From: Dyella mobilis
GTDB lineage: Bacteria > Pseudomonadota > Gammaproteobacteria > Xanthomonadales > Rhodanobacteraceae
Direction: 5' to 3'
DNA: 64,000 nt
Assembly: GCF_016904945.1 (NCBI RefSeq)
Contig: NZ_JADIKF010000035.1
Location: 1 to 64,000 of the forward strand
In this document: positions 39,334 through 62,799 of the stretch, in pieces
Layout: every line of letters begins with the position of its first letter
How positions within the stretch are numbered: position 1 is the first letter of the stretch
The notes under the pieces: model-generated
Seen by the model: only the letters and a program-made list of their open reading frames with translations
Told to the model about the DNA's origin: nothing
Database searches by the model: none
Made by a program: the position numbers and the translations under genes

Positions 39334-39382
39334 GGGAGATGGCATACCTCCCTGAACCGCCGCGAGGCTGATGATGCCTACC
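39334..39382 (+). ncRNA. Fluoride riboswitch 1 (crcB motif), upstream of the DUF190 gene
   Basis: The aptamer pattern is nearly perfect: GGGAGATGGCATACCTCCC, then GAACCGCC, then GGCTGATGATGCCTAC. These are the conserved GATGG..., AACCGCC and CTGATG..CCTA blocks of the fluoride aptamer, with GGCAT able to pair with ATGCC. A hairpin (CCAACCCG/CGGGTGG) starts right at the 3' edge of the aptamer and is a candidate expression platform. The next gene on this strand is the DUF190 protein at 39619. The 236-base leader between has a 74-codon frame that I do not think is a gene. Confidence 0.93.
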
Positions 39383-39618
39383 AACCCGGGCTTTCGGGTG
39401 GAGGCGCTGCGTGACCGCTATCCGCGAGCTCGGCCGCTGTTTGTTGACCACCGAGTACCGCGCACCCTCGAATACGCCGACTTTTACCGTTCTTTTTACC
39501 TGACACCGATTGCATTGGGTGCTGACGGGCGAATGGGGTTCGGCATAGCGAATGGGCGTGGTGCGTCGCAGCATACTCGGATCCACTTTGGCTGACTTCG
39601 TCATTGGAGGCGCTCGTT

Positions 39619-39939
39619 ATGAAGGGTTATTCGCTTCGTTTCTACATGCACGAAAACCAGAAACACCGTGGCATGCTGCTGTACGAATGGGTCCTGGAGA
39701 AAGCCAAGGCGACTCACGTCCACGGGGGATCTGTCTTCAAGGCCATTGCCGGTTTTGGCCGTCATGGGGTTATGCATGAACAGCATTTCTTCGAACTGGC
39801 CGGTGACATGACGGTCTTGGTGGAATTCATCGTGGATGACACGGATGCGGGCAAGTTGCTCGACATCGTCCATGAGGATGGGGCGCCCCTGTTCTGGGCC
39901 AAGTTCCCCGCGGAATTTGGTATCGTCGGAACGGATTGA
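39619..39939 (+). CDS. DUF190 PII-like protein under a fluoride riboswitch
   Basis: A 106-residue protein of the DUF190 family (MKGYSLRFYMHENQKHRGML, ATHVHGGSVFKAIAGFGRHG, LVEFIVDDTDAGKLL). DUF190 proteins have a ferredoxin-like fold related to PII signal proteins and often accompany crcB fluoride channels. I start it at ATG 39619, which follows GGAGG. Here it has its own fluoride riboswitch but no crcB neighbour. It may sense a nucleotide or metal and adjust a transporter; that is inference. Confidence 0.85.
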   Translation: MKGYSLRFYMHENQKHRGMLLYEWVLEKAKATHVHGGSVFKAIAGFGRHGVMHEQHFFELAGDMTVLVEFIVDDTDAGKLLDIVHEDGAPLFWAKFPAEFGIVGTD

Positions 39940-39971
39940 CGGTACCTGCTGATGGGCTAACCACGTTAGCG

Positions 39972-41267
39972 TCATGGCCGTCGAGACATCATCAGTAGGT
40001 GAAGGCACTTCAGTGGGTTGATGGCCCATGCTGAGAGCGGTATGTCTGCAAGGTAGATGCGGACATACCGCGCAGTGATGCGGTGCTTTAAGGCCGTATA
40101 CGCCTGCCATCTAACGTCCCAGTTACGATCACTTAGCCGATTAGTGAGCCAGCTACCCGACTCAACGGGGTCTAGCCGTTCAACAGCAATGGCGGCGGCG
40201 GCGCGCACTCGCGAGTTCGCATGGTGTATCAACTGTTTGAGAGCGGCTGCCGTGGGGGTGTTCCACCGATGTATGCCAAAGACGAGTTCGTCTTCCGAAA
40301 CGGCCGTCATGACACGATGCAAATTCCTGGCATTGTCACCGGTCCATTGCAGCAATTGAGTCAACAGCCAATACCGTCCCCAGGTATCTGAGGGGTGGGC
40401 ATTGTCATAGATGTCTCTTTCCCTGTTAGCTCGCAGGATGTCGAGCCCAGACTCCAGGAATAGCGGTCCTGCTTGTTGCAGTCGATCACGACAGGCCGAT
40501 GCCAAGATAGGATCTTTGCTTAATACGCCATGCAAGAGGGCCTCGATGGTGGCGGTGTCCTTTACGTCAGGCATCACCAGAGCGGCGGCGCTATGTACCA
40601 TGCAGCACGCATGGCTCAGTGCTTTGTCTGTAAGCCCTCTTTCTACGGCAACGTGAATGGAGGCCAACCATCGAAATGCACGGACGAGAGCAAGACGCGT
40701 GCGGGGCGAATCGCTGGAAGGGTCTAACCAGGCCTGTATTGCGGCTAACACGGACTGGACGCTTTCGGGTCGCAACGCGTGAAGGGCCGATTCAGCGGGC
40801 GACGCCAGTACATCATCGGTGAGTAGCTCGACTAACGATGCCCTCAACCCGAGCACCCTCAACGTTCCCGCCGCACGAATGGCAGAGGGCAATCGTTCGC
40901 TTTGAATGGCCCAGCAAATATCGTCTACGGTGGCCTCATTTTGCACGACCAAGGCGCCCATCGCCGCATCCTTGACCCGGTATTCGGACTCAGCCAGACC
41001 GGGAGGGAGCTCGTGAAGGGGATACGCACGAAGAAGCTGACGTAATAGTTCAGGCACTCGCGCATCGTGAAGACGTCCCAACATTTGCACCGCCAGAACA
41101 CGGGGTTGGGATACCGGTTGGGGACCTTGTTTTAGGTAATGGGCTAACGGTTCAATGGCGCGATGGCCTAAAGCGAGAATGTTCTCAACAGCCATCTCGC
41201 GTCTGGCCAAATCATCGAGCCATGCAGCGACCTGGATCGTATCCTTCTGGGTATTCGGGCCGTTCAT
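39972..41267 (-). CDS. HEAT-repeat protein, last gene of the fluoride/complex-I-like operon
   Basis: A 431-residue alpha-solenoid. The ATG at 41267 overlaps the stop of the upstream small ORF as ATGA, which fixes the start; the longer open frame to 41555 is Arg/Cys-rich and overlaps the GTPase gene. Repeats of paired helices are visible (RVLAVQMLGRLHDARVPELL, SAIRAAGTLRVLGLRASLVE, SRVRAAAAIAVERLDPVESG, RNWDVRWQAYTALK). HEAT solenoids act as protein scaffolds or adaptors. Position downstream of a dynamin-like GTPase and a respiratory-type complex suggests a role in assembling or tethering them. Confidence 0.75.
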   Translation of the reverse strand: MNGPNTQKDTIQVAAWLDDLARREMAVENILALGHRAIEPLAHYLKQGPQPVSQPRVLAVQMLGRLHDARVPELLRQLLRAYPLHELPPGLAESEYRVKDAAMGALVVQNEATVDDICWAIQSERLPSAIRAAGTLRVLGLRASLVELLTDDVLASPAESALHALRPESVQSVLAAIQAWLDPSSDSPRTRLALVRAFRWLASIHVAVERGLTDKALSHACCMVHSAAALVMPDVKDTATIEALLHGVLSKDPILASACRDRLQQAGPLFLESGLDILRANRERDIYDNAHPSDTWGRYWLLTQLLQWTGDNARNLHRVMTAVSEDELVFGIHRWNTPTAAALKQLIHHANSRVRAAAAIAVERLDPVESGSWLTNRLSDRNWDVRWQAYTALKHRITARYVRIYLADIPLSAWAINPLKCLHLLMMSRRP

Positions 41268-41512
41268 GGGATCGATGCCTGCCATGCGTCGGCATGGCCG
41301 ATCACAGCGCCGACTTTGCGGTGATATCGGAGGCTGACAACGGCTGCCATACAAACGTCGTAACGTGGATGATGCCGTGCCACGTGGAACGACGCGGCAT
41401 GCGGATGCGCCCGCCGAGTTTCGATGCCAGTACCACCGTAGGGGTAACACGTACATGTTTCCTCGATTCTCGCGCAGCACTCCGGACAGAAGCAAACGAT
41501 ATGCACAGACAT
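41264..41512 (-). CDS. Small Cys-rich ORF between dynamin and HEAT genes
   Basis: An 82-codon frame whose ATG lies 3 bases past the GTPase stop and whose TGA overlaps the HEAT start (ATGA). That fit on both sides is the argument for translation. The N-terminus is cysteine-rich (MSVHIVCFCPECCARIEETC, then CYPYGG), which could bind a metal; the rest is His/Arg-rich and less convincing. Not recognised as a family. Confidence 0.4.
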   Translation of the reverse strand: MSVHIVCFCPECCARIEETCTCYPYGGTGIETRRAHPHAASFHVARHHPRYDVCMAAVVSLRYHRKVGAVIGHADAWQASIP

Positions 41513-41515: not shown

Positions 41516-43438
41516 TTAGCCCGGACGCTCTGACATTGATGACGATGCCTGACACGTCCGATCGCCTAATAATGTGGTGAGATGCTCAAGGTCGTTGTTA
41601 AGAGTTGCCGCATCGGTGGGGATCCCCGAGAGGAGAGCCCCTGACGCCTCCATGGTGTGATGGCGAAGCTCTCGCACGCGCTGATCCAGCCAATGATTGA
41701 GCTCGTTGGCATACGCGTCAAAGCATTGGTTTAAACGGTCACTCACGACGCGTTGCAGGCGCCGGCGAAATAGGGGGCGACGCCATAAGCTTAGGCCCAT
41801 CCCCGATGAAATGTGCCAATCGCTCGGAAGCGTCGCAGCAAAAGGCGGCGCGCCACGCAGCACCTGAGCAACGGCCGAAGGGTTCATGTCGTGGGTGATT
41901 CGGCGCAGTTCGCCCAGGACATCGCGGACCACGGCGTCGGCGAGTGCCGCGGCACGGTCGGAGAGATCCTCTGCTGTCAGCGTTAGGTTCCTGGGTGTTT
42001 GCGCCGTCACTTCCTCAATGATGACGTCAGCGCCGCGCTCGGCGAGATCGCGAATCAGGCTGTGCAGGCGTGGATGAACATCGTCCAGATCGGCCAGAAC
42101 GTCGGCATGCCCGCCCACGTCATGCTCGGGAGGAGATAGCGCGGGCAGTTCTGCAATCGCTTGCTGTAAGGTAATGCGTACTCGATTGGCCAGGTCCAGG
42201 ACGCGACCCTGATGTCGGACGCTGGCTTGTTCTGCGGTCTTTTGAAGGCCCTTTCGAAATGCATCATCGAGCCACGCCTGAAGCGTGTCATGGTGTTCCG
42301 GCTGGATGCTGACAGCCTGGACAGATACGGACTCTCGCACGGCCTCACGAAGCGCTTGCGTCACATATTCACGTTGTTGGTTCAACGCGTCGCCCGATAC
42401 GGTATCGGCCTTGGTGAGCACGACAAGCCAATAAGCGCCGGCATCCCTCAGCGCACGCACAATGTCCAGATCTTGCGGCATTAAGGTCGCTGCCGCATCG
42501 ATAGCGATAACGCCCATATCGCAGCGCGGTAAATAATCGAGCGCATGGGCCGATGCATGCGCGTGAAGAGAGCCGAGCCCAGGCGTGTCCGCGAGAACGA
42601 CGCCGTTTTGAAGAATGGCGGCTGGAAAATGGATGCTCACTTCGCGCAGGCGAAGGCGATTGCCGGGATTGCCCGCTTCGTCGACATAGTCGTGCAGATT
42701 CTCGGGCGCAATGGCCTCCACTTCACCCTCGACATTCATGGCGCGAATGTCGATGTTTTCGCCGTAACGAATGCGGGTGACGACCGTTGTAACCGGAACA
42801 GCTCCCACTGGGAGCAAAGGGTGGCCCAGAAGGGCGTTGACCAAGGACGACTTGCCGCTACTGACGCGTCCGAGAAGGGCCACCTCTACGCGGTCCCCCT
42901 GCTCGCGAGCGAGCAGAGCTTCCAGCCGGCTGCGATACTCGAACAAACGATGTCGCTCTATGATCTCCGTCAACGCAGCGAGCAACACATCATCGATTCC
43001 CGATGGCAAACGCAGCGGCTCACGGCGGAGCTCGCCGCCCATGGTGTTGAGAAGCATGACCAATTCAGCGGATAGCGCGCGGCAAGCTTGTTCATCCTCG
43101 GTACTTATTTCTCCATAACCGCGCAAATTACCTGGACGAAGCTCGTAGACGGCGTTACGTATGAGTGCAAGGTGGGTTTCAAAGCTCCAGGATGCTTCAA
43201 TAAGATCATCCTGCCGATAGTCGATGCGGTACGTGTCCATGAAACGACGCATGACCGCACGCAGCCGCGCCAGATGGGCCACCAACGCGTCGATTCGCTC
43301 CTGCGAGGGAAAGTTGCGGTACTCGTGGAACAGGGCGTCCCTGTCATTCCCATGAAGTTGCGCAATCGACTCGCCTACCTCGCGTTCGATGTGGCGTAAG
43401 GCGGTAGCGAGATAGCGACGGTGGTTGTCCGAAAACAT
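41516..43438 (-). CDS. Dynamin-like GTPase
   Basis: A 640-residue large GTPase. A helical N-terminal region (about 1-185) precedes the G domain: P-loop LLGRVSSGKSSLVNALLG, switch threonines in VPVTTVVTRI, G3 VVLADTPGLGS, G4 VVLTKADTVSG. A long helical C-terminal part (about 380-640) would form the stalk, with a basic WRRPLFRRRLQR patch that could touch membrane. Bacterial dynamins bind and remodel or protect membranes. It sits 15 bases downstream of the NuoL/HyfB-like gene, in the fluoride-riboswitch operon, so membrane repair under fluoride stress is a reasonable guess. Confidence 0.85.
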   Translation of the reverse strand: MFSDNHRRYLATALRHIEREVGESIAQLHGNDRDALFHEYRNFPSQERIDALVAHLARLRAVMRRFMDTYRIDYRQDDLIEASWSFETHLALIRNAVYELRPGNLRGYGEISTEDEQACRALSAELVMLLNTMGGELRREPLRLPSGIDDVLLAALTEIIERHRLFEYRSRLEALLAREQGDRVEVALLGRVSSGKSSLVNALLGHPLLPVGAVPVTTVVTRIRYGENIDIRAMNVEGEVEAIAPENLHDYVDEAGNPGNRLRLREVSIHFPAAILQNGVVLADTPGLGSLHAHASAHALDYLPRCDMGVIAIDAAATLMPQDLDIVRALRDAGAYWLVVLTKADTVSGDALNQQREYVTQALREAVRESVSVQAVSIQPEHHDTLQAWLDDAFRKGLQKTAEQASVRHQGRVLDLANRVRITLQQAIAELPALSPPEHDVGGHADVLADLDDVHPRLHSLIRDLAERGADVIIEEVTAQTPRNLTLTAEDLSDRAAALADAVVRDVLGELRRITHDMNPSAVAQVLRGAPPFAATLPSDWHISSGMGLSLWRRPLFRRRLQRVVSDRLNQCFDAYANELNHWLDQRVRELRHHTMEASGALLSGIPTDAATLNNDLEHLTTLLGDRTCQASSSMSERPG

Positions 43439-43453: not shown

Positions 43454-45436
43454 TTAGGTGAGACCGAGTGCAAGAATGAGCATCAACAGCACGCCCACCA
43501 TGCCTAGGTAGATATTCATATGTCCCGATTGCAGCGGCCCCAGTGCCTTGGCCACGCTTTGCACGATCCGGGTGGGTGTACGAAAAACGGCCGCTTCGAA
43601 TAGCGGCGACACACTGGCCGTATGACGCATCTCCTGGACAAAGTATTCGCTGTGATCGGGGCCTTGCTCCACATCGTCGGTGGGGTGGTAGACAAAGCCG
43701 TAGAACGTACGCATCGCGTTGGAGAACGCCAAGGGTGTGGTGTTGCCATGAGCGGGTTTGGGCAGGCCTCCAAACCATGCACTTGCCCGGCGCACGCGAT
43801 GGCGTCGGCGTGCCATGCCAAGTAGCACGAGGGGCACAAGCGCCAGTAATGGACAGGCGATGATCAACTTGGTGGGGGAGATGAACGCGAAGGTATTGGT
43901 CAGCGGGACGAGGATCAGGCCATCGTGTAAAGGGGCGGCCGGCACATCCGCAAAGCGCGCATGGACGGCAGCGTCGATCGCACTGAGCCACCAGGGCATA
44001 CCGACGGCGAGCGCAAGAACGGCCAGGCCGAGTAATCCGGTGGCGCATGCATAGCCGCGCTCTGCGCCGGGAAGTGGTGTTTTTTTGGTTGCATCACCGA
44101 GAACCCCGAGTCCGGCGAGCTTCACGAAGGTCGCAAACGCAATGGCCGCGGTTAACGCCATGCCTGCGCCGGCCAACGACAAGGTGAGTCGTGCGGGCAT
44201 ACCTGCCAGGTGGAAGCCTTGGAATAGCGTCTGGAAGGTAAACCATTCGCTGACAAAGCCAGCTTGGGGCGGCATCGCCGCCAAACTCATGCTGGCAAAG
44301 ACCACGCCGATGCCGTAGAGCCAAGGGCTGCGTCGCAGCAGCCCACGTTGAATGAGTTCGTAGTCGCCGCTTACGCGATAGGCCCCGTCGGCCGCCAACA
44401 TGAGGGCGCCCTTGGCCAAGGCATGGCCGGCCAAATGCAGGAGTGCCACCGCAAAACCGAGACCGGCCAGCGCATCCAGCCCTTCACCCCGAAAGAGCTG
44501 ACTGGCGCCCAGCAGCGTGACGGCGATAGCGGCATTTTCCGCCGAAGAAAACGCTAGCAAACGACGCCAGTCATTTTCCTGGAAGGCGTACAGCACAGCG
44601 AGGATGGCGCTGAGTACCCCGAGCGCAACGGTAATGATCGCGAGTGCCACATCACCGGGAAGCCAGCTCGTGAAGGCGCGCGCCAAGGCGAAGAATGCGG
44701 CGTTTAATACGATGCCCGAAAGGATCGCACCACTGGCACCGCTGCCTTGGCCATAGGCGCCGGGATACCATTCATAGAACGGCAACAAACCCAGTTTGGC
44801 GCCAAAGCCAATGAGAAGCAGCACCCCGATAACGACGCGTCGCCACGTCGCAAAGGCGACACCCACGTTGGCGAAATGGTCGAAATCGAGGTGGCCTGCA
44901 CTGGACGAAAGCATCAGTAAGGCCGTAAGCAGTGCTACCGCGCCAACCTCCAACAACGACAGCATGAAAAACAGACCGCGCCCCTCGCGGGTGTCGCCAA
45001 GCTTTTCGCCGATCAACAATACGGCGCCGCCCAAGCTCATGACTTCCCATGCCACCAGGAAGCTCACGGCATCTTGCAGGCCAAAGCACCCCAGCGCGCC
45101 CAGCATGGACAATGCGGCGCCGGAACACCAACTGCGCCACCGTAATGAGGTGGTACCCAACGCCGTGGCGAAGAACGCTGCAAGCGCACCAAAGAGCAGT
45201 AGCCATAGCGCATCGGGGGTGAGCATGAATCGTGCGCTGCCGGCCGGCCCCCATGACGTAGTGAGCGCGGGCATCGCCATGCCTCGGGGCAATTGCCAGA
45301 GCGCGGCGATAGCGAGCAGTAGGGCACCCACGGCGAGGCAGGCGCGCGCGAGCACACGTCCGATTCCCGCGCACGCCAATACGAGGCACAACAGCCATAG
45401 CACCGCGGCGAGGGGCGCTAACCATTCAGGGCGCAT
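43454..45436 (-). CDS. HyfB/NuoL-like antiporter-type membrane subunit
   Basis: A 660-residue polytopic membrane protein of the proton-pumping complex-I antiporter family. The ATG at 45436 follows GAGAGGAC and overlaps the previous gene by 11 bases. The proton_antipo_M core is clear: VAWEVMSLGGAVLLIGE (key Glu), GFGAKLGLLPFYEWYPGAYG (key Lys), and LHLAGHALAKGALMLAADGA, plus a distal C-terminal part (PTDDVEQGPDHSEYFVQEM) as in HyfB/HycC. It would carry ions across the inner membrane as part of the complex encoded upstream. It is last of the complex genes, followed by the dynamin-like GTPase. Confidence 0.85.
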   Translation of the reverse strand: MRPEWLAPLAAVLWLLCLVLACAGIGRVLARACLAVGALLLAIAALWQLPRGMAMPALTTSWGPAGSARFMLTPDALWLLLFGALAAFFATALGTTSLRWRSWCSGAALSMLGALGCFGLQDAVSFLVAWEVMSLGGAVLLIGEKLGDTREGRGLFFMLSLLEVGAVALLTALLMLSSSAGHLDFDHFANVGVAFATWRRVVIGVLLLIGFGAKLGLLPFYEWYPGAYGQGSGASGAILSGIVLNAAFFALARAFTSWLPGDVALAIITVALGVLSAILAVLYAFQENDWRRLLAFSSAENAAIAVTLLGASQLFRGEGLDALAGLGFAVALLHLAGHALAKGALMLAADGAYRVSGDYELIQRGLLRRSPWLYGIGVVFASMSLAAMPPQAGFVSEWFTFQTLFQGFHLAGMPARLTLSLAGAGMALTAAIAFATFVKLAGLGVLGDATKKTPLPGAERGYACATGLLGLAVLALAVGMPWWLSAIDAAVHARFADVPAAPLHDGLILVPLTNTFAFISPTKLIIACPLLALVPLVLLGMARRRHRVRRASAWFGGLPKPAHGNTTPLAFSNAMRTFYGFVYHPTDDVEQGPDHSEYFVQEMRHTASVSPLFEAAVFRTPTRIVQSVAKALGPLQSGHMNIYLGMVGVLLMLILALGLT

Positions 45437-46232
45437 GGACACGTCCTCTCTGGATACGCTGTGGTTTGCGCTCCAGCAATAACAAAAGCGCTTCAATGAT
45501 GGCGGCAGGATTCGGCGGGCAGCCTGGCAACCACACATCGACTGGGAGGATGCCTTCCACGCCGTGTCCACCCGCATAGGTGTCTGCACTTACGCCACCG
45601 CAGACCGCGCAGGTCCCGCAGGCGAGTACACGCCGCGGCTCGGGCATGGCTTCCCAGGTGGCCATCAGCGGCTCGCGCATAGCCGCCGTGACTGTGCCCG
45701 TCACCAGCAGGAGATCCGCGGCGCGAGGGGAGGGGGTGAAAAAGATGCCCAGCCGATGCAAGTTGTAAAACGGATTGACGAGTGCCTGCAGCTCCGACTC
45801 GCAGCCGTTGCAGGAGCCTGCATCGACGTGGCGGATGTGTAGGCTGCCGCGGAAGCTTGCATCGATATGCGATATCAGCGCGTGTTCCGAACGCGTTGCA
45901 GGATTCGATGACCAACGCAGATCCTCACGTTCGCGGACTCCAAAAGCCCATTCGGCCCCAGTCTGCAGGGTGCCGCTGGGACACGCATCGACGCACAGCT
46001 GACAGGCAATACACCGGCCATAGTCAAGTGTTGCGAGGCGGTCGCGCGTATCGAGCTGGATGGCCCGTGTCGGGCACACCTCAGCGCACGCGCGGCAGGC
46101 ATCGTGACACGGCTCGGCGCCAATGGTTGGCATGCCGTAACCGCTTTGCTGACCGGTATCGCCTTCGGGGCGATCCGGCCAGTTCGTGGTCGCAATGCCT
46201 TGGCCCAATCCTCGCAGTGTCCACAGCGGCAT
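45426..46232 (-). CDS. NuoB/HycG-like small subunit fused to a two-cluster ferredoxin
   Basis: A 268-residue Fe-S protein. Residues about 38-88 hold two 4Fe-4S motifs (CHDACRACAEVCP, CIACQLCVDACP), corresponding to the NuoI/HyfH ferredoxin. Residues about 125-260 are the NuoB/HycG subunit with its proximal-cluster cysteines GSCNGCE, CGTCAVCGG and PGCPPNP. All ligands look intact, so the electron wire is preserved. In most Hyf/Hyc systems these are separate genes; here they are one chain. Start ATG 46232 follows AGGAG. Confidence 0.87.
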   Translation of the reverse strand: MPLWTLRGLGQGIATTNWPDRPEGDTGQQSGYGMPTIGAEPCHDACRACAEVCPTRAIQLDTRDRLATLDYGRCIACQLCVDACPSGTLQTGAEWAFGVREREDLRWSSNPATRSEHALISHIDASFRGSLHIRHVDAGSCNGCESELQALVNPFYNLHRLGIFFTPSPRAADLLLVTGTVTAAMREPLMATWEAMPEPRRVLACGTCAVCGGVSADTYAGGHGVEGILPVDVWLPGCPPNPAAIIEALLLLLERKPQRIQRGRVHAP

Positions 46233-46241: not shown

Positions 46242-47717
46242 CTAGCGGTCGCAGCCGGCGATGGTGAGACCGAAGCTGGCCTGGTTGATGGCGTAATCCA
46301 TCATGTTGGTTCGATGCACGGTGAAAGGAAACGCCCGCCAATTGGAGAAGGAGGGCGACTTGATCTTTACCCGTGCGAGCTTTCCGTCGCCATTGATATG
46401 AACGGCATAGAACAACGATCCCCGCGGCGATTCGGCCCAGCCCAAGCCTTCCGATCCGGGTTGCAGGGGACATTCGGCACGCACAGGACCGGCAGTGAGC
46501 GAGGGGATCAAGGTGTCGAGCAAGTCAAAACTGGCACGCAGCTCCGCCGCGCGGACTTTGGCTCGCGCGTAGGCATCGCCTTCATCGGCCAACGGCACCG
46601 ACACTTTCAGCCACCGGTACGCCGCATACGGATGATCGCGGCGCAAGTCGCGGTCCAGACCCGACGCGCGTTCGACAGGACCGGTAGCCCCTTGATCGAA
46701 CGCCACTTGCCTTGTCAGCACGCCGGTCGTGATAAGCCGATCCAGATAACTGGTCGTACGTTCCAACTCCACCAGGTAGCTATCCACTTGCTTGCGTAGC
46801 ACGTACAGCGTGTTAAGGCAGTCATGCGTCATCGTGATATCGCGGCGCAAGCCGCCTGGTGTTAGCACATTGCGCAGGAAGCGGCTGCCGGTCATGTGCG
46901 CATTGAGCTGTTTGGCACGCTCCGATAGCAGCGCTCCTTCCGCATGACCCACTTTCAACGTGGTGGTATCGGCCAGATGGCCAAAGTAATAGAGATGGTT
47001 GTAGAGACGTTCCAATTCGGCCAGCACGGCGCGCCATTGCTGGGCGCGCTGGGGTACGTCACATCCGGCCGCGTCCTCGATCGCTTGGCAGTAGGCCAAG
47101 GCGTGCGCCACGCTACCCACACCGGAAACACGCTCTGCGATCGTGGTGGCGGTAAGCGGGTCACGCCCCTCGAACGCGCGCTCCATGCCGCGATGTTTGA
47201 AGAACAGACGTGGCTGATAGTGCAAGATCGATTCGCCGAGGTAATGAAAAAGGAACTGGGCTGATTCCACAGCACCGGCACGCACTGGGCCAAAGCTCAG
47301 CAGTTGCACGTCATCACCGTGCACATCCGGGACGTGATGAGGGGCATGCAACTGACGCTGCCAGCCTGATGCGTGAATCAGTGGGGTGGTGTCCATCCAG
47401 CCGTCGGCGATGAGTGGATAGGGTTGCGGATGGTCGGTGAAGCACACCCCGTACAGATCATGGATCTCGCGTTCGTACCAGCCTAGTAAAGGGGCGCACG
47501 TGGTGAGGCTCGGCAGCGTGTGTTCATCGGGGCGACAACACCAGACCTGGAAGGGCTGACTTGGCGCGGGCGCGGCCAGATAGCGTACCTCGATACGATC
47601 GGTTTGCGCGTGCCACGCGTAGGCCATTTGCATACGGCCGCCGGTGGCGAGCAACGCTTGGACACGCGCGTGTAACGCCACCGGTTCCAATGATAGCTTC
47701 TCGAACCCGAGGCTCAT
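46242..47717 (-). CDS. HycE/NuoCD-like large subunit lacking the NiFe cysteines
   Basis: A 491-residue fusion of a NuoC-like domain (about 1-150; WYEREIHDLYGVCFTDHP) and a NuoD/hydrogenase-large-subunit domain (about 160-491). In HycE/HyfG the NiFe site needs two CxxC pairs. Here the first, expected after ERV, reads ERVSGVGSVAHAL, with no cysteine at either position, and the C-terminal one reads SFGLTIAGCDR with only one Cys near the position. The end in DR is like NuoD. So it cannot be a working NiFe hydrogenase and belongs with energy-converting-hydrogenase-related complexes. The ATG at 47717 overlaps the upstream stop as ATGA. Confidence 0.88.
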   Translation of the reverse strand: MSLGFEKLSLEPVALHARVQALLATGGRMQMAYAWHAQTDRIEVRYLAAPAPSQPFQVWCCRPDEHTLPSLTTCAPLLGWYEREIHDLYGVCFTDHPQPYPLIADGWMDTTPLIHASGWQRQLHAPHHVPDVHGDDVQLLSFGPVRAGAVESAQFLFHYLGESILHYQPRLFFKHRGMERAFEGRDPLTATTIAERVSGVGSVAHALAYCQAIEDAAGCDVPQRAQQWRAVLAELERLYNHLYYFGHLADTTTLKVGHAEGALLSERAKQLNAHMTGSRFLRNVLTPGGLRRDITMTHDCLNTLYVLRKQVDSYLVELERTTSYLDRLITTGVLTRQVAFDQGATGPVERASGLDRDLRRDHPYAAYRWLKVSVPLADEGDAYARAKVRAAELRASFDLLDTLIPSLTAGPVRAECPLQPGSEGLGWAESPRGSLFYAVHINGDGKLARVKIKSPSFSNWRAFPFTVHRTNMMDYAINQASFGLTIAGCDR

Positions 47718-50948: not shown

Positions 50949-50985
50949 GACACGGCTCCAGACATGGAAAAGCCATCACTCGCCT

Positions 50986-51510: not shown

Positions 51511-51906
51511 GTGCCTACACAAATTCTCGCGCTCTATGACCGCTCCGCGCTGGGCGATCTTGCCGTTGAAACGGCGTTTCAGGCGGCCCGCGAACAAGCC
51601 ACAGCGGCGCTGCATCTATTGGCTATTCCAAGCGTTGCCGATGATGCCGCGCAGTGTGAACGCCTCAGCGATGACTTGATCGCTTTTGCACGGATCGGCC
51701 AACGGTACGGCATTGTGTTAGACGGCGCGGTCATCGTGGAGCCGACGGTCGAGCGTATAACGACCGAAGTCCGGGCGCGAAAGATCAACCTGCTTGTTAT
51801 TGCCAAGCCGGCCAGTCAGCGCGGGTCCACCGAACTCAGCCGGTTGCTTGATGCTGTCGCACACGTGACCGGTATTCCAACCACCGTGGTACATGGTGGC
51901 CCGTGA
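51511..51906 (+). CDS. Universal stress protein, UspA-like
   Basis: A 131-residue single-domain Usp. I start it at GTG 51511 (VPTQILALYDRSALGDLAVE), where the first beta strand begins; the open frame upstream to 51358 is not family-like. The end INLLVIAKPASQR...IPTTVV is the usual Usp last strand, but the G-x2-G-x9-G-S ATP motif is degraded, so nucleotide binding is doubtful. First gene after riboswitch 2; its stop overlaps the MFS start. Confidence 0.75.
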   Translation: MPTQILALYDRSALGDLAVETAFQAAREQATAALHLLAIPSVADDAAQCERLSDDLIAFARIGQRYGIVLDGAVIVEPTVERITTEVRARKINLLVIAKPASQRGSTELSRLLDAVAHVTGIPTTVVHGGP

Positions 51907-55877: not shown

Positions 55878-57382
55878 AAGCCTATCTCATGCACCCTGCG
55901 AAGAATTTCGATGCAGACCAGGACCTTCCAGGCCACGAGGCTACGTTACGAAAGGATCTGGAACTGGACGTTCTGCTGAAGATCATGGCCGATGACGATG
56001 ACTTCGTCCTGGATATCGCGCGCAGGGTGCTGCTTCTTTGCTTCACCAATGACATAGAAACCATACGGTATCGTCATGATGTTTTATGGGACAGTTTGAA
56101 ACACCCGGACGTGGTTCGGCAGATGTACACCCTGACCGTGGAAGCGATAGAAGGCAGGAAGCGGTGTTATTGGAGTTTCTCTAGCGATCAGCCCTCGTCC
56201 ATCCTGCACGGTTCGGTCGAGGTGCTGCAGTTGTTTGTGAGCGTCTTGCAAAAGATGAGGGTGGTGGCCGATGCATGCATCGGTCAGTTCGGCTCGCGCG
56301 GTCTGGGCAACATTTTTGCCATGTTGCGCGCTGAATTCTCTGACGACTATCTGTCCGGTGTACAGGCGCACCTTAAAGAGCTGAAATTTCGACATGGCGT
56401 CCTGTTGAGTGCCCAATTGGGCTCCGGGAACGAAGGCACCCATTTTATGTTGCGCCGACCGAAGGATCGAAGTCATGGCTTACTGAAACGGGTCTTTGGC
56501 AGTCCCTCACCGTCGTATACGTTTCGCCTGCATGAGCGGGATATGGCCGGGGCACAGGCGGTAGGGCAGATGCGCAACCGCGGCATCAATCGGGTTGCGA
56601 ACGCACTGGCCCAGTCCATGGATCACATCATGGCTTTCTTCCAGATGCTGCGTACGGAGCTCGCATTCTATGTGGGTTGCCTGAATCTGGAGTCCAGGCT
56701 GGAAGCACTGGGGCGCCCCGTGACACTTCCCGACGTGTCGGATGCTGGCATTGGCCCCCGACACTTCAGTGACCTTTACGATCCATGCCTGGCCTTAAGC
56801 CTGGGCCGCGACATTGTGGGGAACACGTTAAACACGGATAAAAAGCACGCGGTGATTATTACCGGCGCCAATCAAGGCGGAAAGTCCAGTTTTCTGCGTA
56901 GCGTGGGTATTGCTCAGCTCATGATGCAGAGCGGCATGTTTGTCGCCGCCGGCACCTATGCAGGGGCGCTTTGTAATGCGCTGTACACGCACTATAAGCG
57001 CGAAGAAGACGCGACGATGAAGCATGGCAAGCTTGACGAAGAATTAGGCCGGTTGAGCGATATCGCCAAGGAAATCGCCCCGGACGCCATGGTGCTCTTC
57101 AACGAATCGTTCGCCTCCACGAATGAGATGGAAGGTGCTGAGATTGCCAGACAGATCACCACGGCCCTACTGGATCGGCGCATCGTGGTTTATTTCGTCA
57201 CGCACCTGTACACGTTTGCGCATGGGCTGATGGAATGTGGTCGCGAGGATGCGCTCTTCCTACGCGCGGAGCGTCTGGATGATGGCACTCGAACGTTCCG
57301 CCTGGTGGAGGGCGCTCCGTTGGAAACCAGCTATGGCCATGACCTCTATCAAGAAGTGTTTGGGAAGAGGGCAGGCACGTGA
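55874..57382 (+). CDS. MutS-like ATPase, second of a pair
   Basis: A 502-residue protein of the same architecture as its neighbour but divergent in sequence. Walker A is TGANQGGKSSFLRSVGIAQL, Walker B is DAMVLFNESFASTNEMEGAE, and VYFVTHLYTFAHGL gives the H-loop. ATG 55874 overlaps the upstream stop. MutS ATPases work as dimers, so a two-gene pair suggests an obligate heterodimer. Function under fluoride stress is unknown; MutS-type genes have been seen with fluoride riboswitches before, as I recall. Confidence 0.85.
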   Translation: MKAYLMHPAKNFDADQDLPGHEATLRKDLELDVLLKIMADDDDFVLDIARRVLLLCFTNDIETIRYRHDVLWDSLKHPDVVRQMYTLTVEAIEGRKRCYWSFSSDQPSSILHGSVEVLQLFVSVLQKMRVVADACIGQFGSRGLGNIFAMLRAEFSDDYLSGVQAHLKELKFRHGVLLSAQLGSGNEGTHFMLRRPKDRSHGLLKRVFGSPSPSYTFRLHERDMAGAQAVGQMRNRGINRVANALAQSMDHIMAFFQMLRTELAFYVGCLNLESRLEALGRPVTLPDVSDAGIGPRHFSDLYDPCLALSLGRDIVGNTLNTDKKHAVIITGANQGGKSSFLRSVGIAQLMMQSGMFVAAGTYAGALCNALYTHYKREEDATMKHGKLDEELGRLSDIAKEIAPDAMVLFNESFASTNEMEGAEIARQITTALLDRRIVVYFVTHLYTFAHGLMECGREDALFLRAERLDDGTRTFRLVEGAPLETSYGHDLYQEVFGKRAGT

Positions 57383-57483: not shown

Positions 57484-58761
57484 TTAGCGCATGAACGCCG
57501 ATCGGCCTGCAAAGCGGGCGCGCGGACCCAGTTCGTGTTCGATACGCAGCAGTCGGTTGAACTTGGCGGTTCGCTCGCCGCGACAGCCCGAGCCGGTCTT
57601 GATATGACCACAGCCGATGGCGACGACAAGATCCGCAATGAACGTGTCTTCTGTCTCACCTGAACGGTGAGATACGTAGCACCCATACCCTGCAGCTTTG
57701 GCCTGCTGTACGCAGTCCAGGGTTTCCGTGACGGTGCCGATCTGGTTGGGTTTGATGAGGATCGAGTTGGCCACACCTTCCCGAATTCCCCGTTTCAGAA
57801 GCTCGGGGTTGGTGCAAAAGATGTCGTCACCGACGAGTTCTACGCGATCACCAAGATCTTGGGTCAACTGAGCCCAGCCTTCCCAGTCATGTTCTGAAAG
57901 CGGGTCTTCCAGCAGGACAATCGGGTAGCGCTGCAGCCAGTCGTCCCAGAGTGCAATCATCGCGGCACTCTCGCGCTCTGACTGGGTGGATTTGAAAAAA
58001 CGATAGCGGCCGTGGTGCCACATCTCGCTCGCAGCGGGGTCGAGGGCCAGTGACACCTGTTCGCCAGGCTGATAACCGGCTGATTTGATCGCCGCGACGA
58101 TGAGCTCGATGGCCTGCTCGTTACTGTGCAAATTCGGTGCAAATCCGCCTTCATCGCCCACGCCGGTCGAGAGTCCGTGCTCTTGCAGCAGCTTACGCAG
58201 CGCATGAAACACTTCTTCACCCATGCGAATGGATTCGGCAAAGCTCTCGGCATCATGGGGGACAATCTTGAACTCTTGAAAATCCACGGTGTTGTCGGCG
58301 TGACGTCCCCCGTTGATCACGTTGAGGCAGGGCACCGGCAGGATGACCGCATCATCGCCCCCCAGGTGCTGGTAAAGAGGCATCTTCCTCGACGCGGCCG
58401 TCGCGCGTGCATAGGCGATCGATACGGCAAGGGTGGCGTTCGCACCTAGTTGACTCTTATTGGGCGTCTCGTCCAACTCGCACAAAAGATGATCGAAGGC
58501 ACGCTGATCGCCGGGATCTTTGCCAAGCACGGCGCCACTTATCTCGCGCCGCACATGACCGACCGCTTTTTGGACACCTTTCCCACCATAACGGTGTGGA
58601 TCGCCATCGCGCAGCTCGACGGCCTCATGCATGCCGGTAGAGGCGCCGGATGGTGTGATGGCACGGCCTTCGGAACCGTCTTCCAGCCGCAGCACAGCTT
58701 CGACGGTGGGATTGCCACGCGAGTCGAGTACTTCTATCGCGTCAATGTGGGTGATCTTCAT
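57484..58761 (-). CDS. eno: Enolase, fluoride-regulon copy
   Basis: A 425-residue enolase of normal length, converting 2-phosphoglycerate to phosphoenolpyruvate. Active-site blocks are present: PSGASTGMHEA, GVGDEGGFAPN, metal ligands in LALDPAASE, LLEDPLSE and LVGDDIFCTN, catalytic Lys in LIKPNQIGT, and SHRSGETEDTFIADL. Some positions differ from housekeeping enolases as I remember them: ALDPAASE instead of ALDCAASE, and KTGSGCRGERTAKF where KTGS-x-SRSERxAKY is usual. Fluoride inhibits enolase by binding magnesium with phosphate in the active site, so a fluoride-induced, slightly altered copy could keep glycolysis running. ATG 58761 follows AGGAG. Last gene of the riboswitch-3 operon. Confidence 0.93.
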   Translation of the reverse strand: MKITHIDAIEVLDSRGNPTVEAVLRLEDGSEGRAITPSGASTGMHEAVELRDGDPHRYGGKGVQKAVGHVRREISGAVLGKDPGDQRAFDHLLCELDETPNKSQLGANATLAVSIAYARATAASRKMPLYQHLGGDDAVILPVPCLNVINGGRHADNTVDFQEFKIVPHDAESFAESIRMGEEVFHALRKLLQEHGLSTGVGDEGGFAPNLHSNEQAIELIVAAIKSAGYQPGEQVSLALDPAASEMWHHGRYRFFKSTQSERESAAMIALWDDWLQRYPIVLLEDPLSEHDWEGWAQLTQDLGDRVELVGDDIFCTNPELLKRGIREGVANSILIKPNQIGTVTETLDCVQQAKAAGYGCYVSHRSGETEDTFIADLVVAIGCGHIKTGSGCRGERTAKFNRLLRIEHELGPRARFAGRSAFMR

Positions 58762-58791: not shown

Positions 58792-61700
58792 TCAAGGAGA
58801 GGCGAGGTCAAACAATTCACGAAGATCGTTATCGTTCAGGCGTTCTAGCGGAGCCGTACTTTCACTCAGCATAGCGCCGGCCAGATCGCTCTTATGACTC
58901 TTCATGGCGTCGATCTTTTCTTCGATCGTGTTGTCGCAGATCAGCTTGTAGATAAACACCGGGTGTTCTCGGCCTAGGCGATGGGCGCGGTCGATGGCCT
59001 GCATCTCGACAGCAGGGTTCCACCACGGGTCGTAGTGGATCACCGCATCAGCGGCCGTGAGATTCAACCCGACGCCACCCGCTTTCAGGCTCGCCAGCAA
59101 GATCGGACAGGCGCCCGATTGGAAGTCGCGCACCGGTGTTGCCCGATCAGCGGTGTCGCCTGTCAACATCGTGTGACGAACGTTTGCTCCCTTAAGGGCC
59201 ACGCTGATCAAGGCCAACATCGAGGTGAATTGACTGAACACCAGAATTTGACGATTTTCTTCGCGCAGCGACTGGATCAATTCCAGCAGAGCCTCAAGCT
59301 TGGCCGAATCTGGCGGTTGACTCAACGATTCAACTAAACGTGGATCGCAGCAAACCTGGCGCAAACGGAGCAGCGCCGATAGCACGACAATCCGCGATTG
59401 TTCCTGGTTATAGCTGGCCAAGGCTTCACGTACGCGCTCGTTTTGGGCCAGTCGCAGCGACTCATACAGAGTCCGTTGGCGTTCACCCATGGCGACGCGC
59501 AAGGTGGTTTCCGTTTTTGGAGGGAGTTCGGGCGCAACGGCTGTTTTAGTGCGACGCAGAAGGAATGGGCCAATCCTTTGCCGCAGAATGGCCTTCCGGA
59601 CATCATCCTCGTACTGCTCAATCGGTTGGCGGAAGCTTCGCTTGAAGGAACGATAGTCACCCAGATAGCCCGGTAGTACGGCATCAAAGTGTGCCCACAA
59701 TTCGCCCAGGTGATTTTCAAGAGGCGTGCCGGTTACGGCAAGCCGATGCGTGGCGTGCAACTGGCGTACGGCGCGGGCCGTCTGCGTTAGCGGATTCTTG
59801 ATCCACTGCGCTTCATCCAATACCAGCATGGTGTAGTCGATCTTCTCCAAGATGGGAAGGTCGTTAGCAACCAAGGCGTAACTGGTGATAATGATGTGCG
59901 CACCGGGAAGCGCATCATGCAACGACGCTCGCGCTGCGCCGGTGAAGTTGACGTAATGAAGCGTCGGCGCAAAGCGCGCCACTTCGTCCAGCCAGTTGAA
60001 GATCAGGCTGGTTGGCGCAACGATCAGGGCGGGCCGATCCAATCGCCCGGCTTCATCCTCCATCAGAAGGTGGGCGATGATCTGGACGGTCTTTCCAAGC
60101 CCCATGTCGTCGGCAAGAACGCCCCCGAGCTCGCTCTGTCGCAAAGCCTGCAGCCACTGGAGGCCTTCGTGTTGGTAGCCGCGTAGCGTTCCTCGAAAGG
60201 ACGGCGGAACGGTGATCATGGGAGACAGCGTGACCGCCGCGCGAAGCGCCGCAAGGGTTCGCGCAATATGAGACGCTTGACTGCCTTCTACGCTAACGCC
60301 CTGGTGCTGCAAGCAGCTACTCAATGCCATGGCTTGTGAGCGCGAGATGTTCAGATGGCGCTCCTGCGACGCCGTCGGGCGGTCGAGGCATTCAAGCAGC
60401 GGCGCCATCCATTCCCGTAGCTGATGAAGCGGCAGCGGAAGCCAGCGACCCGCCCCCAAGGGGGCGAGCCAATGCGCACCGGCAGGTTCGCTGGGGAGCG
60501 GGGTCAATGAAAACGCGCGCCGAGCAAGCCCGCCCAGCACAATCGGCAATACATCGATGTCTTCGCCGTCGATCGTGGCGGCGAGCTCAAATTGTGTCCA
60601 GCCGGGCCGCTCTCCCTTGTCCAGGATCGCTCTTAACTCGACGTCATGCGGTAAGACGGTGAAGGGCAATTCCGGGTCGTACTCGATGGTGTAGCCGGCA
60701 TCTCCCAATGCCTGCAGCAACGTTTCGAGCGCCGAAAACGTCTCGGCACCCCCATGGTGGCAATCGCGGTGAGCAAGGGCGCCGAGGTCGGGCGTAGGCG
60801 TCAGTACACGACGCGCCTCCGGCACCAGTGTCGCGATCTCCACCAAGCCGAGGGCATGGAGAGCTTTTCGTGCACGGGCCTCTTGATCAACATCACGCTG
60901 TAAGAGCACATATTCGTGGCCGGCTTGGGCAACCCATTCCTGCTGATGCAAATCGCTCGCCAGTTCTAGTCGATGGCCAGCGTAGTCGGCATACGCCTGC
61001 GCGTAAAACACGTGATCACCACGTTGGTCGTGCCGTGAAGCACGGATGACGATCACCGGATGACACGATGCGTCGACGTGGCGAAGAGTAGGGGGAGGCG
61101 GAGGGTGGGGTACATGGATGAGCAGGGGATGAGGCGGCCACGCATGCGTAAGCGCCTCCGCCTCTCGCGTGCCCACAGGCGGCATTTGTTGAAGGATGTC
61201 CCACGCCATTTTCGACAGCGCCAGGCTGCCCAGCTCGCCCGTGGAGAGATCCAGGTAGTGCAAGCCCGCCAATTCGATCAATTGCACCTCGTGGGAGGTC
61301 TCCCAACGCAGTGCGAGACGGGCATTGGCATGGCGATCGTGCGACCATTCCCACTCGGGCTGACGCGGTTTGCCTGCGTGGATTTCCTGCAAGGCATGCG
61401 CATGCATGCATATCCCCGCGTCCAGAAACTCCGTCAGCAGATGGGCGCCGGCGGTGCCATGCAATACAAAGGCGGTGTCATGGGTGCGCCGGCGTTTCTG
61501 TGTCATGGCCAGCTGCGATTGCCACAAAATGGCCTGCCGCGATAGGTGAGGATGCGCTTTCGGCTGTTCGACCGACATCCAGCGCTCGGGCTCTGGTCCA
61601 TGGGCAAGCAGCAATTGGACGGCCACTTTGAAAGGCGGGCGCTCCCCCTCGGCGTGCAGCAGGCAAACCAGTCGCCAGGACTCATTTTTGGGAAGGACGG

Positions 61701-62157
61701 TACCCGAGGTTTCAGGCACCTCATGCCAGCTCTCAACGCTCTGTTGCCACCGTTGCAAGGGCGTCATGGCCCGCGGCCAATCCAGCAGCTGCTGAAGTCG
61801 GATGAGCATCGCAGCCGCGTGCACGCACTGCGCAAGCCCACAACTGCACTGAGCATCCAACTGGATCTGTCCGAACAGTGCGAACAGGTACACGGTCACG
61901 CACTGAAAGCCGCCATCCATGTCCATCACGCTGCATTGCAATGCTTGCGCTTGGCTGCCTTCCGGTTGAAACCAAGCGAGCGGTTTCTGCCAGTCCTTGC
62001 TACGCAAGGCCAGCGCTTCGGCCGCTTTGAGCGTGGGGCGACCAAAGTGAGCGGCTAATGGCAGCTCACGAATGGCGTCCATCAATGAGCGGCGCGCCTC
62101 TTCGGTCCGATTGGGCGCATGAGCATGAGGACGCGGTGTCATAACGGCCTCGCTCAT
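58792..62157 (-). CDS. SWIM-domain SNF2/RapA-like helicase
   Basis: A 1121-residue SF2 ATPase. A SWIM zinc finger near residues 95-125 (AQCSCGLAQCVHAAAMLIRL) is followed by a long linker region and the SNF2 engine from about residue 640: GGVLADDMGLGKTVQIIAHL (motif I), LVLDEAQWIKN (motif II), VTGTPLENHLGELW (III), and the second RecA half QILVFSQFTSML, LASLKAGGVGLNLTAADAVI, AIDRAHRLGREHPV (V-VI). Such proteins move along DNA and remodel nucleoprotein. The start at 62157 overlaps the usp stop (ATGA). Sharing an operon with enolase and usp under fluoride control is unexpected. Confidence 0.9.
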   Translation of the reverse strand: MSEAVMTPRPHAHAPNRTEEARRSLMDAIRELPLAAHFGRPTLKAAEALALRSKDWQKPLAWFQPEGSQAQALQCSVMDMDGGFQCVTVYLFALFGQIQLDAQCSCGLAQCVHAAAMLIRLQQLLDWPRAMTPLQRWQQSVESWHEVPETSGTVLPKNESWRLVCLLHAEGERPPFKVAVQLLLAHGPEPERWMSVEQPKAHPHLSRQAILWQSQLAMTQKRRRTHDTAFVLHGTAGAHLLTEFLDAGICMHAHALQEIHAGKPRQPEWEWSHDRHANARLALRWETSHEVQLIELAGLHYLDLSTGELGSLALSKMAWDILQQMPPVGTREAEALTHAWPPHPLLIHVPHPPPPPTLRHVDASCHPVIVIRASRHDQRGDHVFYAQAYADYAGHRLELASDLHQQEWVAQAGHEYVLLQRDVDQEARARKALHALGLVEIATLVPEARRVLTPTPDLGALAHRDCHHGGAETFSALETLLQALGDAGYTIEYDPELPFTVLPHDVELRAILDKGERPGWTQFELAATIDGEDIDVLPIVLGGLARRAFSLTPLPSEPAGAHWLAPLGAGRWLPLPLHQLREWMAPLLECLDRPTASQERHLNISRSQAMALSSCLQHQGVSVEGSQASHIARTLAALRAAVTLSPMITVPPSFRGTLRGYQHEGLQWLQALRQSELGGVLADDMGLGKTVQIIAHLLMEDEAGRLDRPALIVAPTSLIFNWLDEVARFAPTLHYVNFTGAARASLHDALPGAHIIITSYALVANDLPILEKIDYTMLVLDEAQWIKNPLTQTARAVRQLHATHRLAVTGTPLENHLGELWAHFDAVLPGYLGDYRSFKRSFRQPIEQYEDDVRKAILRQRIGPFLLRRTKTAVAPELPPKTETTLRVAMGERQRTLYESLRLAQNERVREALASYNQEQSRIVVLSALLRLRQVCCDPRLVESLSQPPDSAKLEALLELIQSLREENRQILVFSQFTSMLALISVALKGANVRHTMLTGDTADRATPVRDFQSGACPILLASLKAGGVGLNLTAADAVIHYDPWWNPAVEMQAIDRAHRLGREHPVFIYKLICDNTIEEKIDAMKSHKSDLAGAMLSESTAPLERLNDNDLRELFDLASP

Positions 62158-62543
62158 CCGACCACGGTGATAGGAATGGAGCAATCGTCGTGGAGCGCCT
62201 TCAACAACAGGGTGTTGGTGCGCGACGCACCGCCTTCAGGCCGGCCCATGATGATGCGATCAATCCCGTGTGCGAGCAGTATTTGCTGGAGCAGATCGGG
62301 AGTGGGGGCGTCCAGGTAGCTGGCATCCACATCGACGCCCAAGGGCGTCCCCTGGTGGGCGAACCCCACCAGGTCCTGGGTGAGCCGCTCTCCCACTTCG
62401 ACCGCGGATACCGCCTCTTCTTCCAGTCGGATCGCCAGGACAAAGAGGCTGGCGTGAACTTCTGCCGCGAGCTCCAGTGCCTCCTCGACCGCCCTGCGGG
62501 TATCTGCCGAGCCGTCATACAGAACCAGCAGTCGGTTAGCCAT
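62154..62543 (-). CDS. Universal stress protein, UspA-like (second copy)
   Basis: A 129-residue single-domain Usp starting MANRLLVLYDGSADTRRAVE with the family's Asp in the first turn. The end reads DRIIMGRPEGGASRTNTLLL and IPITVV; part of the Gly-rich ATP loop is kept. It is distinct from the copy at 51511. The start codon lies inside the end of a leader ORF (62536-62643), suggesting coupled translation, and the stop overlaps the SNF2 start. Confidence 0.85.
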   Translation of the reverse strand: MANRLLVLYDGSADTRRAVEEALELAAEVHASLFVLAIRLEEEAVSAVEVGERLTQDLVGFAHQGTPLGVDVDASYLDAPTPDLLQQILLAHGIDRIIMGRPEGGASRTNTLLLKALHDDCSIPITVVG

Positions 62544-62643
62544 GGCGCGGTTCGATCCCTAGGCCGCCACCACATCCGGCAGACGGCGTGGGTGGACATG
62601 CACCGATACGATGCGAAACACCTTTTAGACGGGAAACACGCAT
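62536..62643 (-). CDS. 35-residue leader ORF upstream of usp
   Basis: ATG 62643 is preceded by an excellent GGAGG (GGAGGTCGTC-ATG) and encodes MRVSRLKGVSHRIGACPPTP, then SAGCGGGLGIEPRHG. Its TAA lies 5 bases inside the usp gene, so ribosomes ending here could restart at the usp ATG. This is the best ribosome site in the riboswitch-3 transcript. A leader or coupling role is more likely than a stable protein. Confidence 0.5.
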   Translation of the reverse strand: MRVSRLKGVSHRIGACPPTPSAGCGGGLGIEPRHG

Positions 62644-62706
62644 GACGACCTCCGTAGCGCAAACCTGACAAAAGCGCGCTCCGGGTCGGACTTTGGAAGG
62701 AAAGTC

Positions 62707-62751
62707 ATGCCTACCAACCATCACGATCCGGATGGCACATTCGGTAGGCAT
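62707..62751 (-). promoter_or_regulatory. Anti-aptamer expression platform of riboswitch 3
   Basis: The last aptamer block ATGCCTACC (minus, 62751-62743) has a perfect 9-base complement GGTAGGCAT at 62715-62707. Pairing them would dismantle the aptamer's long-range GGCAT/ATGCC contact, so fluoride binding and this stem exclude each other. No T-run follows; control could be at translation, via the leader ORF, or through Rho. Confidence 0.65.
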
Positions 62752-62799
62752 CATTAGCCTTACGGCGGTTGGGTCGATCGGGGAGGAATGCCATCTCCC
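62743..62799 (-). ncRNA. Fluoride riboswitch 3 (crcB motif), heading the usp-SNF2-enolase operon
   Basis: On the minus strand: GGGAGATGGCATTCCTCCC, loop, CCAACCGCC, then GGCTAATGATGCCTACC. It matches the fluoride aptamer with one change (CTAATG for CTGATG) in the third conserved block. It is nearly the same sequence as riboswitches 1 and 2, suggesting duplication. Confidence 0.9.

Follow-up and report, generated by a model that had tools for sequence, protein, structure and literature searches.

Which system do the fluoride riboswitches of this locus control, and what may be the function of the hydrogenase-like membrane complex that stands behind one of them? The locus lies in a 64,000-nt stretch of Dyella mobilis DNA (the window in the following), which is the first 64 kb of contig C35. 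Only the left part of a longer stretch with nine fluoride riboswitches falls within the window, and from its conserved and replaced residues and its riboswitch linkage we read the membrane complex as a fluoride-dedicated clade of the energy-converting-hydrogenase-related (Ehr) complex. This Ehr-type complex is probably a redox-driven proton pump, predicted to offset the acid that is brought in by hydrogen fluoride (HF).

Fluoride riboswitches of the window and the host genome

The window was scanned with cmscan against all Rfam families at gathering thresholds, the cut-off of the fluoride riboswitch family RF01734 being 34 bits, and exactly four matches were found, every one of them to RF01734 (E-values 1.2e-10 to 2.6e-9). 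The aptamers are located at 39326..39387 on the plus strand (RS1; 47.9 bits, E 3.4e-10), at 50980..51041 on the minus strand (RS2; 45.2 bits, E 2.6e-9), at 51173..51243 on the plus strand (RS3; 49.2 bits, E 1.3e-10) and at 62738..62807 on the minus strand (RS4; 49.3 bits, E 1.2e-10). Each of them heads a separate same-strand unit, with 18 genes in total, and each unit presumably forms one transcript as judged by strand and spacing. An earlier note on this DNA had proposed four fluoride switches, each heading a distinct unit on either strand, and had named an Infernal search with the Rfam model as the check; the four significant hits at the named places bear this out. Its figure of some 20 controlled genes is about right for the window, which however cuts a larger stretch.

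In the host genome (5.18 Mb, 40 contigs), ten riboswitches were found over the cut-off, nine of which lie within 58 kb at positions 39,326-97,077 of C35; the remaining one, on contig C32, scores weakly at 35.8 bits. The fifth riboswitch of the stretch, at 64799-64868 on the minus strand, lies past the window end. Taken by position, the riboswitches past the window precede an ATP-binding cassette (ABC) transporter, which is headed by the fifth; a prenyltransferase-like protein and another dynamin; a PilT-like ATPase; a CLC channel; and an incomplete crcB frame.

Linkage of the riboswitch to the membrane complex

Genes of the window were called from open frames together with Pfam and NCBIfam matches. 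The RS2 unit is an eight-gene run on the minus strand, in which the genes of six complex-I/Hyf-like subunits are followed by those of a dynamin and a HEAT protein. The subunits comprise a hyfC/nuoH-like membrane subunit (49863..50807; PF00146, E 2.7e-30), which starts 173 nt after RS2, a hyfE-like membrane subunit (49177..49857; NF008556, E 1.1e-12, under the model's own cut-off), a hyfF-like antiporter-type subunit (47714..49174; PF00361, E 7.4e-54), a HyfG/NuoCD-like large subunit in which the 30 kDa and 49 kDa parts are fused and the four NiFe cysteines are missing (46242..47765; PF00346, PF00329), a small subunit fusing an 8Fe-ferredoxin to a NuoB-like part in the manner of HyfH-HyfI (45426..46232; PF01058, Fer4) and a hyfB-like antiporter-type subunit (43454..45436; PF00361, E 5.1e-31).

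The relatives of this complex were collected by scanning 84,980 species genomes with a protein pattern blind to RNA, which gave 213 relatives, and the best 80 were kept. In all 67 loci whose sequence reaches 300 nt or more upstream of the hyfC-like gene, a riboswitch was found on the same strand within 600 nt of it (61 of 61 without six duplicates), and the distance was 73-192 nt in 62 of the 67. These hits were scored with our own sequence-only RNA model, R1, and two of them fell below 18 bits. As R1 underrates some true riboswitches (the Rfam hit at L129 17143 got 13.4 bits), Rfam was used as a check on it; eight of the nine weakest R1 hits, both sub-18-bit ones included, were submitted and all eight were over the threshold. 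The remaining pre-hyfC hits rest on R1, which agreed with Rfam hit for hit on five plasmid loci.

No riboswitch was found in 40 control loci of more distant relatives (26-37% identity), and an Rfam scan of 14 of them likewise gave none. The controls consist of 25 of the 30 lower-identity family hits and 15 others; 37 extend at least 300 nt past the outermost recognised subunit, and two of the relatives carry the CxxC motifs of true hydrogenases. Of the five family hits outside the control set, the one inspected, that of G175 (L055), has a riboswitch. In a quick tree (no bootstrap; long branches flagged) the 77 close relatives formed one clade with a Shimodaira-Hasegawa-like approximate likelihood ratio (SH-aLRT) support of 100. 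Martelella alba was placed among Rhodanobacteraceae, and a Terriglobia metagenome-assembled genome (MAG) fell next to a proteobacterial one within a group that is mainly alphaproteobacterial; these placements suggest transfer, with binning error as a possible cause. Some loci of another Ehr-type subfamily, more remote at about 36-43% identity, were also seen to be riboswitch-headed (L055:7027-8361; L093, 0-4.8 kb; L099, 18.9-21 kb), and in L055 the complex stands behind crcB and DUF190.

The neighbourhood of the complex was also found to be recurrent. Within 10 kb on each side, DUF190 is present in 42 of the 80 loci, enolase in 25, CrcB in at least 21 and the two MutS-like proteins a and b in 17 and 18, respectively; none of these was detected by tblastn in the 40 control loci, where the stretches are shorter. 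A fixed operon tail of CrcB or DUF190 was considered and rejected, such a gene being found by tblastn in the 900 nt that follow the hyfB-like gene in only 22 of 60 loci. A small protein with a LALTHGQ..WLM..LG-like motif, regulator-like by eye, was noticed in L068, L074, L075, L077, L087 and L090, where it lies some 0.7-0.8 kb downstream of the hyfB-like gene.

Identity of the complex

The large subunit has 3,393 homologues among 7,998 scored candidates. The best 120 were inspected by name, and many of the named ones are annotated either as Ni,Fe-hydrogenase III large subunit or as formate hydrogenlyase subunit 5, the latter being also the best solved relative. The residues tell otherwise. On alignment to E. 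coli HycE and HyfG, all four NiFe cysteines were found replaced in 79 of 79 large subunits (one duplicate locus excluded, and one truncated row without letters at these sites), with S/V, G/D/A, T/S/A and G at HycE C241, C244, C531 and C534. We take these four cysteines, forming two CxxC motifs, to be the ones that hold Ni-Fe. HypD is absent from the host genome in a search that detects E. coli HypD, and is absent from 13 of 16 named carrier genomes, the other three having one each. FdhF (at 1e-6), NuoE/F/G and HypA/B/C gave no match within 10 kb on each side in the 80 loci, with working positive controls, and the HycB and HyfA matches fall within the ferredoxin domain of the complex itself.

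The iron-sulphur ligands and three proton-path residues are preserved. Among 76 small subunits, each of the 12 cysteines belonging to three 4Fe-4S clusters is retained in 75 or 76, and the Glu, Lys and Glu residues that we take to form the proton path are invariant in 74 of 74 hyfF-like and 67 of 67 hyfB-like proteins (rows below 80% length were dropped from the counts). The complex thus shows large and small subunits without NiFe ligands together with two Mrp antiporter-like subunits, and since most components of a redox-driven ion pump are present, with no recognised active site, it fits the definition of Ehr complexes as given in the available parts of their description (PMC6349859). Two marks of respiratory complex I (NDH-1) are missing as well: NuoE/F/G are lacking in the 80 loci and the quinone-site tyrosine is a glycine.

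Aptamer and leader

Across 40 aptamers, all 200 pseudoknot cells show pairing between the two strands. Both sides were changed in 20 cells as against a shuffle mean of 4.4, slid controls gave 0, and two of the five pseudoknot pairs vary on both sides. The leader pattern failed to locate 20 of 61 leaders. On the 3' side of the aptamer, 19 of 42 leaders carry 6 nt or more that are complementary to the pseudoknot strand, compared with 8% in shuffles, and 26 of 42 have a match of at least 5 nt near a Shine-Dalgarno-like site and start codon. The complement adjacent to the Shine-Dalgarno-like site suits a translational on-switch. Short frames before the hyfC-like gene are opened by a Shine-Dalgarno-like site and start codon 3' of the aptamer. 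Terminator-like sequence was seen by eye in three Paraburkholderia leaders only (L122, L125 and L139); for the window, an intrinsic-terminator platform was rejected, as scans between RS1-RS4 and their first genes showed none.

Islands in other genomes and on plasmids

The survey of the host family, Rhodanobacteraceae, covered 197 genomes including the host, with matches accepted at E-values up to 0.001 under strict filters, and 177 of them have zero or one fluoride riboswitch match. In the 12 genomes whose large subunit has 57% identity or more, the riboswitch counts are 10, 8, 9, 14, 4, 1, 3, 3, 4, 5, 2 and 3. Among the remaining 185 the maximum is 4, in G175, where a more distant complex lies in a riboswitch-headed operon, followed by 3 in two genomes. 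The loci of G134, G007, G009 and G175 hold much of the island gene set in reshuffled order, with riboswitches again present. Sixteen named carriers were picked from the 80 loci and searched, and every one of them has several fluoride riboswitch matches (4-34 per genome), for example 34 in Paraburkholderia sp. DHOC27 and 24 in Ancylobacter dichloromethanicus.

In 72,556 plasmid records, five Burkholderiaceae plasmids were found to carry the large subunit at 54-55% identity. The Burkholderia cenocepacia plasmid NZ_CP073707.1 (134 kb, typed as conjugative, from a human blood isolate) has ten riboswitches in 33 kb (98748-132196; L239), one of them directly before the complex, along with two enolases, two pyrophosphatases, two DUF190 proteins, two annotated MutS, a dynamin, CrcB and CLC. 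A second plasmid of near-identical length and gene list also has ten riboswitches, a B. multivorans megaplasmid has nine and Caballeronia pSBC1_2 has three; the fifth plasmid, of Caballeronia SBC2, was outside the riboswitch counts. A Rhodococcus plasmid with a 35% relative has no riboswitch. The reshuffled recurrence of the set, the riboswitch numbers of the 16 carriers and the ten riboswitches of a conjugative plasmid support the suggestion of the earlier note that this is a dedicated, portable fluoride kit.

Recombination genes adjoin the island in the host, namely a tyrosine recombinase at 37897..39189 (minus strand; PF00589, E 3.7e-14), a Tn3-family transposase at 34814..37855 (minus strand; PF01526, E 8.2e-144) and another tyrosine recombinase at C35:67685. 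Tn3-type terminal repeats flanking the island were looked for and none was found; the repeat-arm search gave only riboswitch pieces of up to 18 nt and chance-size matches of up to 17 nt. An exact 23-nt repeat is common to riboswitches 8 and 9 of the island.

Proposed mechanism and alternatives

We consider it fairly probable that the nine-riboswitch stretch switches on its operons at rising fluoride, and that its centrepiece is a relative of complex I free of Ni ligands and predicted to pump protons. From the sequences we infer both the fluoride control and the proton pumping of the complex. By weak-acid physiology HF enters the cell and splits there, and with F- expelled the net effect is an influx of protons and a drain of membrane potential. 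In the proposed mechanism, the HF entering the cell would give H+ and F-, and CrcB and CLC-F would expel F-, leaving the proton inside and draining the membrane potential. By way of the ferredoxin-like domain of the complex, electrons would reach an acceptor at what was once the NiFe/quinone site, now altered, and the antiporter-type subunits would drive H+ out, by which the cost of the HF/F- cycle would be paid. The second enolase, the pyrophosphatase and the phosphoglycerate-mutase-like enzyme may sustain the steps poisoned by fluoride, and the universal stress protein (Usp), MutS-like, SNF2, Hsp70-like and dynamin proteins may provide damage control. For the clade as a whole, the balance tips slightly in favour of a Ni-free, riboswitch-controlled redox proton pump, spread with islands and plasmids across proteobacterial classes and Acidobacteriota and misnamed formate hydrogenlyase.

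Several observations weigh against this mechanism. No electron donor or acceptor was identified for the complex, and the quinone-site tyrosine, at the position which we take it to occupy in the 49 kDa subunit of complex I, is Gly215 here (invariant, 17 of 17). Asn replaces the lysine equivalent to NuoM K265 and NuoN K247 in 74 of 74 hyfF-like and 66 of 67 hyfB-like proteins, NuoH E216, E218 and E220 are not conserved, and the residues that are conserved do not prove pumping. On the RNA side, two covariation measures (the count of two-sided pairs and that of pair types) were not above shuffles, expression platforms are mixed among the leaders, and the RS2 leader of the window has no pseudoknot-strand complement in the leader test. 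Coupling through a leader frame was rejected, the overlap of its stop with the hyfC start occurring in 11 of 38 cases versus 12 and 3 in two frame-shifted controls. The sister clade in the tree is mixed, L055 having a riboswitch and L192 and L193 none, and second copies in L093 and L099 are also riboswitch-linked, with weaker hits. Paired mobile-element ends were not found on comparing the arms 33,000-40,500 and 33,000-119,000 with exact 14-nt seeds.

The full iron-sulphur ligand set, the antiporter-type subunits and the glycolytic enzymes within the gene set could also belong to a fluoride-induced respiratory bypass, in which low-potential electrons pass to quinone or another carrier since fluoride blocks glycolysis and pyrophosphate turnover, the purpose being energy supply and not the handling of acid or F-. 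The glycine at the quinone site and the lack of a nearby NADH-input module in the 80 loci speak against it, and we hold this bypass to be unlikely, though it is the strongest competitor. A loose pile of independently gained resistance genes, with the complex as a passenger whose riboswitch was kept by chance or common descent, would suit the varying gene order among genomes and the nearby recombinases and Tn3 transposase. This is improbable, as the riboswitch is retained before the complex across Pseudomonadota and Acidobacteriota, down to 54% identity, and the same gene kinds recur beside it.

The antiporter-type subunits might instead transport fluoride, either exporting F- or exchanging HF/F- for H+, which would make the complex an electron-powered primary fluoride pump. 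A riboswitch at every checkable close relative, the crcB or DUF190 gene that follows within 900 nt in those 22 of 60 loci, and the replacement by Asn of one proton-path lysine in nearly all proteins would agree with such a pump; the three key ion-path residues are nevertheless the standard proton ones, the islands already hold dedicated F- exporters, and to our knowledge a primary fluoride pump of this kind is without precedent. We see little chance for it. An ordinary formate hydrogenlyase or group 4 NiFe hydrogenase is hardly credible and was rejected, the NiFe cysteines being lost in all 79 large subunits, HypD missing in the host and most carriers, and FdhF not found near the 80 loci, even though the names of many database relatives, the best solved relative and the term 'formate hydrogen lyase' in the consulted portions of the riboswitch literature (PMC2864571, PMC11139923) all point that way.

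Other genes of the window and the island

The RS1 unit consists of a single DUF190 gene (39619..39939, plus strand; PF02641, E 7.5e-19), with solved homologues 1o51 and 2dcl. The RS2 unit is completed on the minus strand by the dynamin-family GTPase (41516..43438; PF00350, E 1.4e-19) and the HEAT-repeat protein (39972..41285, frame open to 41555; PF13646, E 2.3e-9). The RS3 unit is a six-gene run on the plus strand. It begins with a Usp-like protein (51511..51906), for which Pfam gave no match and which was named by its likeness to the protein at 62154-62543; it has a 50% match in G009 (Frateuria). This is followed by a major facilitator superfamily (MFS) transporter (51906..53138; PF07690, E 1.1e-28), a histidine phosphatase of the phosphoglycerate-mutase superfamily (53135..53752; PF00300, E 7.4e-53), an inorganic pyrophosphatase (53758..54303; PF00719, E 1.1e-54) and two MutS domain V (MutS_V) ATPases, a (54315..55877; PF00488, E 4.8e-16) and b (55874..57382; PF00488, E 1.5e-16). 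The RS4 unit, on the minus strand, contains a Usp (62154..62543; PF00582, E 4.3e-6), an SNF2-type helicase (58792..62157; PF00176, E 1.3e-64) and an enolase (57484..58761; PF00113, E 6.5e-111). The pyrophosphatase and the enolase are both second copies in the genome, the other copies being on C34 (62% identical) and C31 (54% identical), respectively.

The ABC transporter behind the fifth riboswitch occupies 62856..64000 of the window on the minus strand (PF00664, PF00005) and continues to contig position 64694. Two crcB frames of the island look partial (L041:1860-2093 and L041:16120-16386), matching N- and C-terminal parts of the CrcB profile. Between riboswitches 8 and 9 lies a defence set of the cyclic-oligonucleotide-based antiphage signalling system (CBASS) type, with TRIP13, two HORMA proteins, an oligonucleotide cyclase and NucC (L041:4308-7985, that is C35 84308-87985), and a second oligonucleotide cyclase is found near it (L041:10504-11379). 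To the left of the island, 14464-22251 on the plus strand of the window is one open frame of 2595 codons.

Significance and comparison with known systems

If the proposed role is true, the Ehr clade gains a defined physiological role, the idea of a fluoride-induced hydrogen-type fermentation is overturned, and the function of orphan Ehr complexes can be tested with a simple inducer, fluoride. The islands represent a regulon built from one RNA motif, repeated up to 34 times per genome, and as movable units they matter for organofluorine bioremediation and for tracing the spread of fluoride tolerance.

In open-access PubMed Central (PMC) literature, neither a multi-riboswitch fluoride island nor a fluoride-linked Ehr complex was found. 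The view in the earlier note that the joint cluster is new has to be narrowed, as fluoride operons of smaller size have been published from a genomic island and from plasmids according to the sections at hand (PMC5533749, PMC5971314), and holds for the larger multi-riboswitch island, which is absent from the literature searched. Membership in a Ni-less, riboswitch-linked clade, which that note overlooked, is the stronger novelty. In the survey of crcB-motif RNAs, the listed neighbours are mutS, K+ or Cl- transport and 'formate hydrogen lyase' genes, and the excerpts consulted contain no multi-riboswitch island and nothing on the NiFe ligands of the last (Weinberg 2010, PMC2864571); these 'formate hydrogen lyase' examples may belong to the Ni-less clade. 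A 2024 review, in its relevant passage, places the riboswitch-controlled 'formate hydrogen lyase' beside a shift to anaerobic fermentation (PMC11139923), a reading that falls if the protein under the switch is of the Ni-less clade.

Ehr complexes have been described as combining group 4 hydrogenase/complex I subunits with antiporter-like subunits and lacking Ni-Fe-coordinating residues (PMC6349859). The present complex differs from those described in its tie to the fluoride riboswitch and in its fused ferredoxin/NuoB-like subunit, and no fluoride link is made in the available parts of that work. Plasmid pPV989-94 of Pantoea vagans resembles the island in carrying gpmA, eno, ppaC and crcB, and the accessible part of its report has no mention of complex-I-like genes or multiple riboswitches (PMC5971314). 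A close likeness is to the fluoride operon of Enterobacter cloacae FRM GI3, where one riboswitch and six genes were reported, with induction and knockout shown, in the portions of the paper seen here (PMC5533749). On the genomic island GI3, which is flanked by transposases on both sides, the fluoride riboswitch drives genes for pyrophosphatase, Usp, enolase, phosphoglycerate mutase and CrcB, gene kinds that the Dyella island shares. Compared with what those portions describe, the Dyella island has nine riboswitches, spread across 58 kb, and in addition holds an Ehr-type complex, a MutS pair, SNF2, dynamins and CLC.

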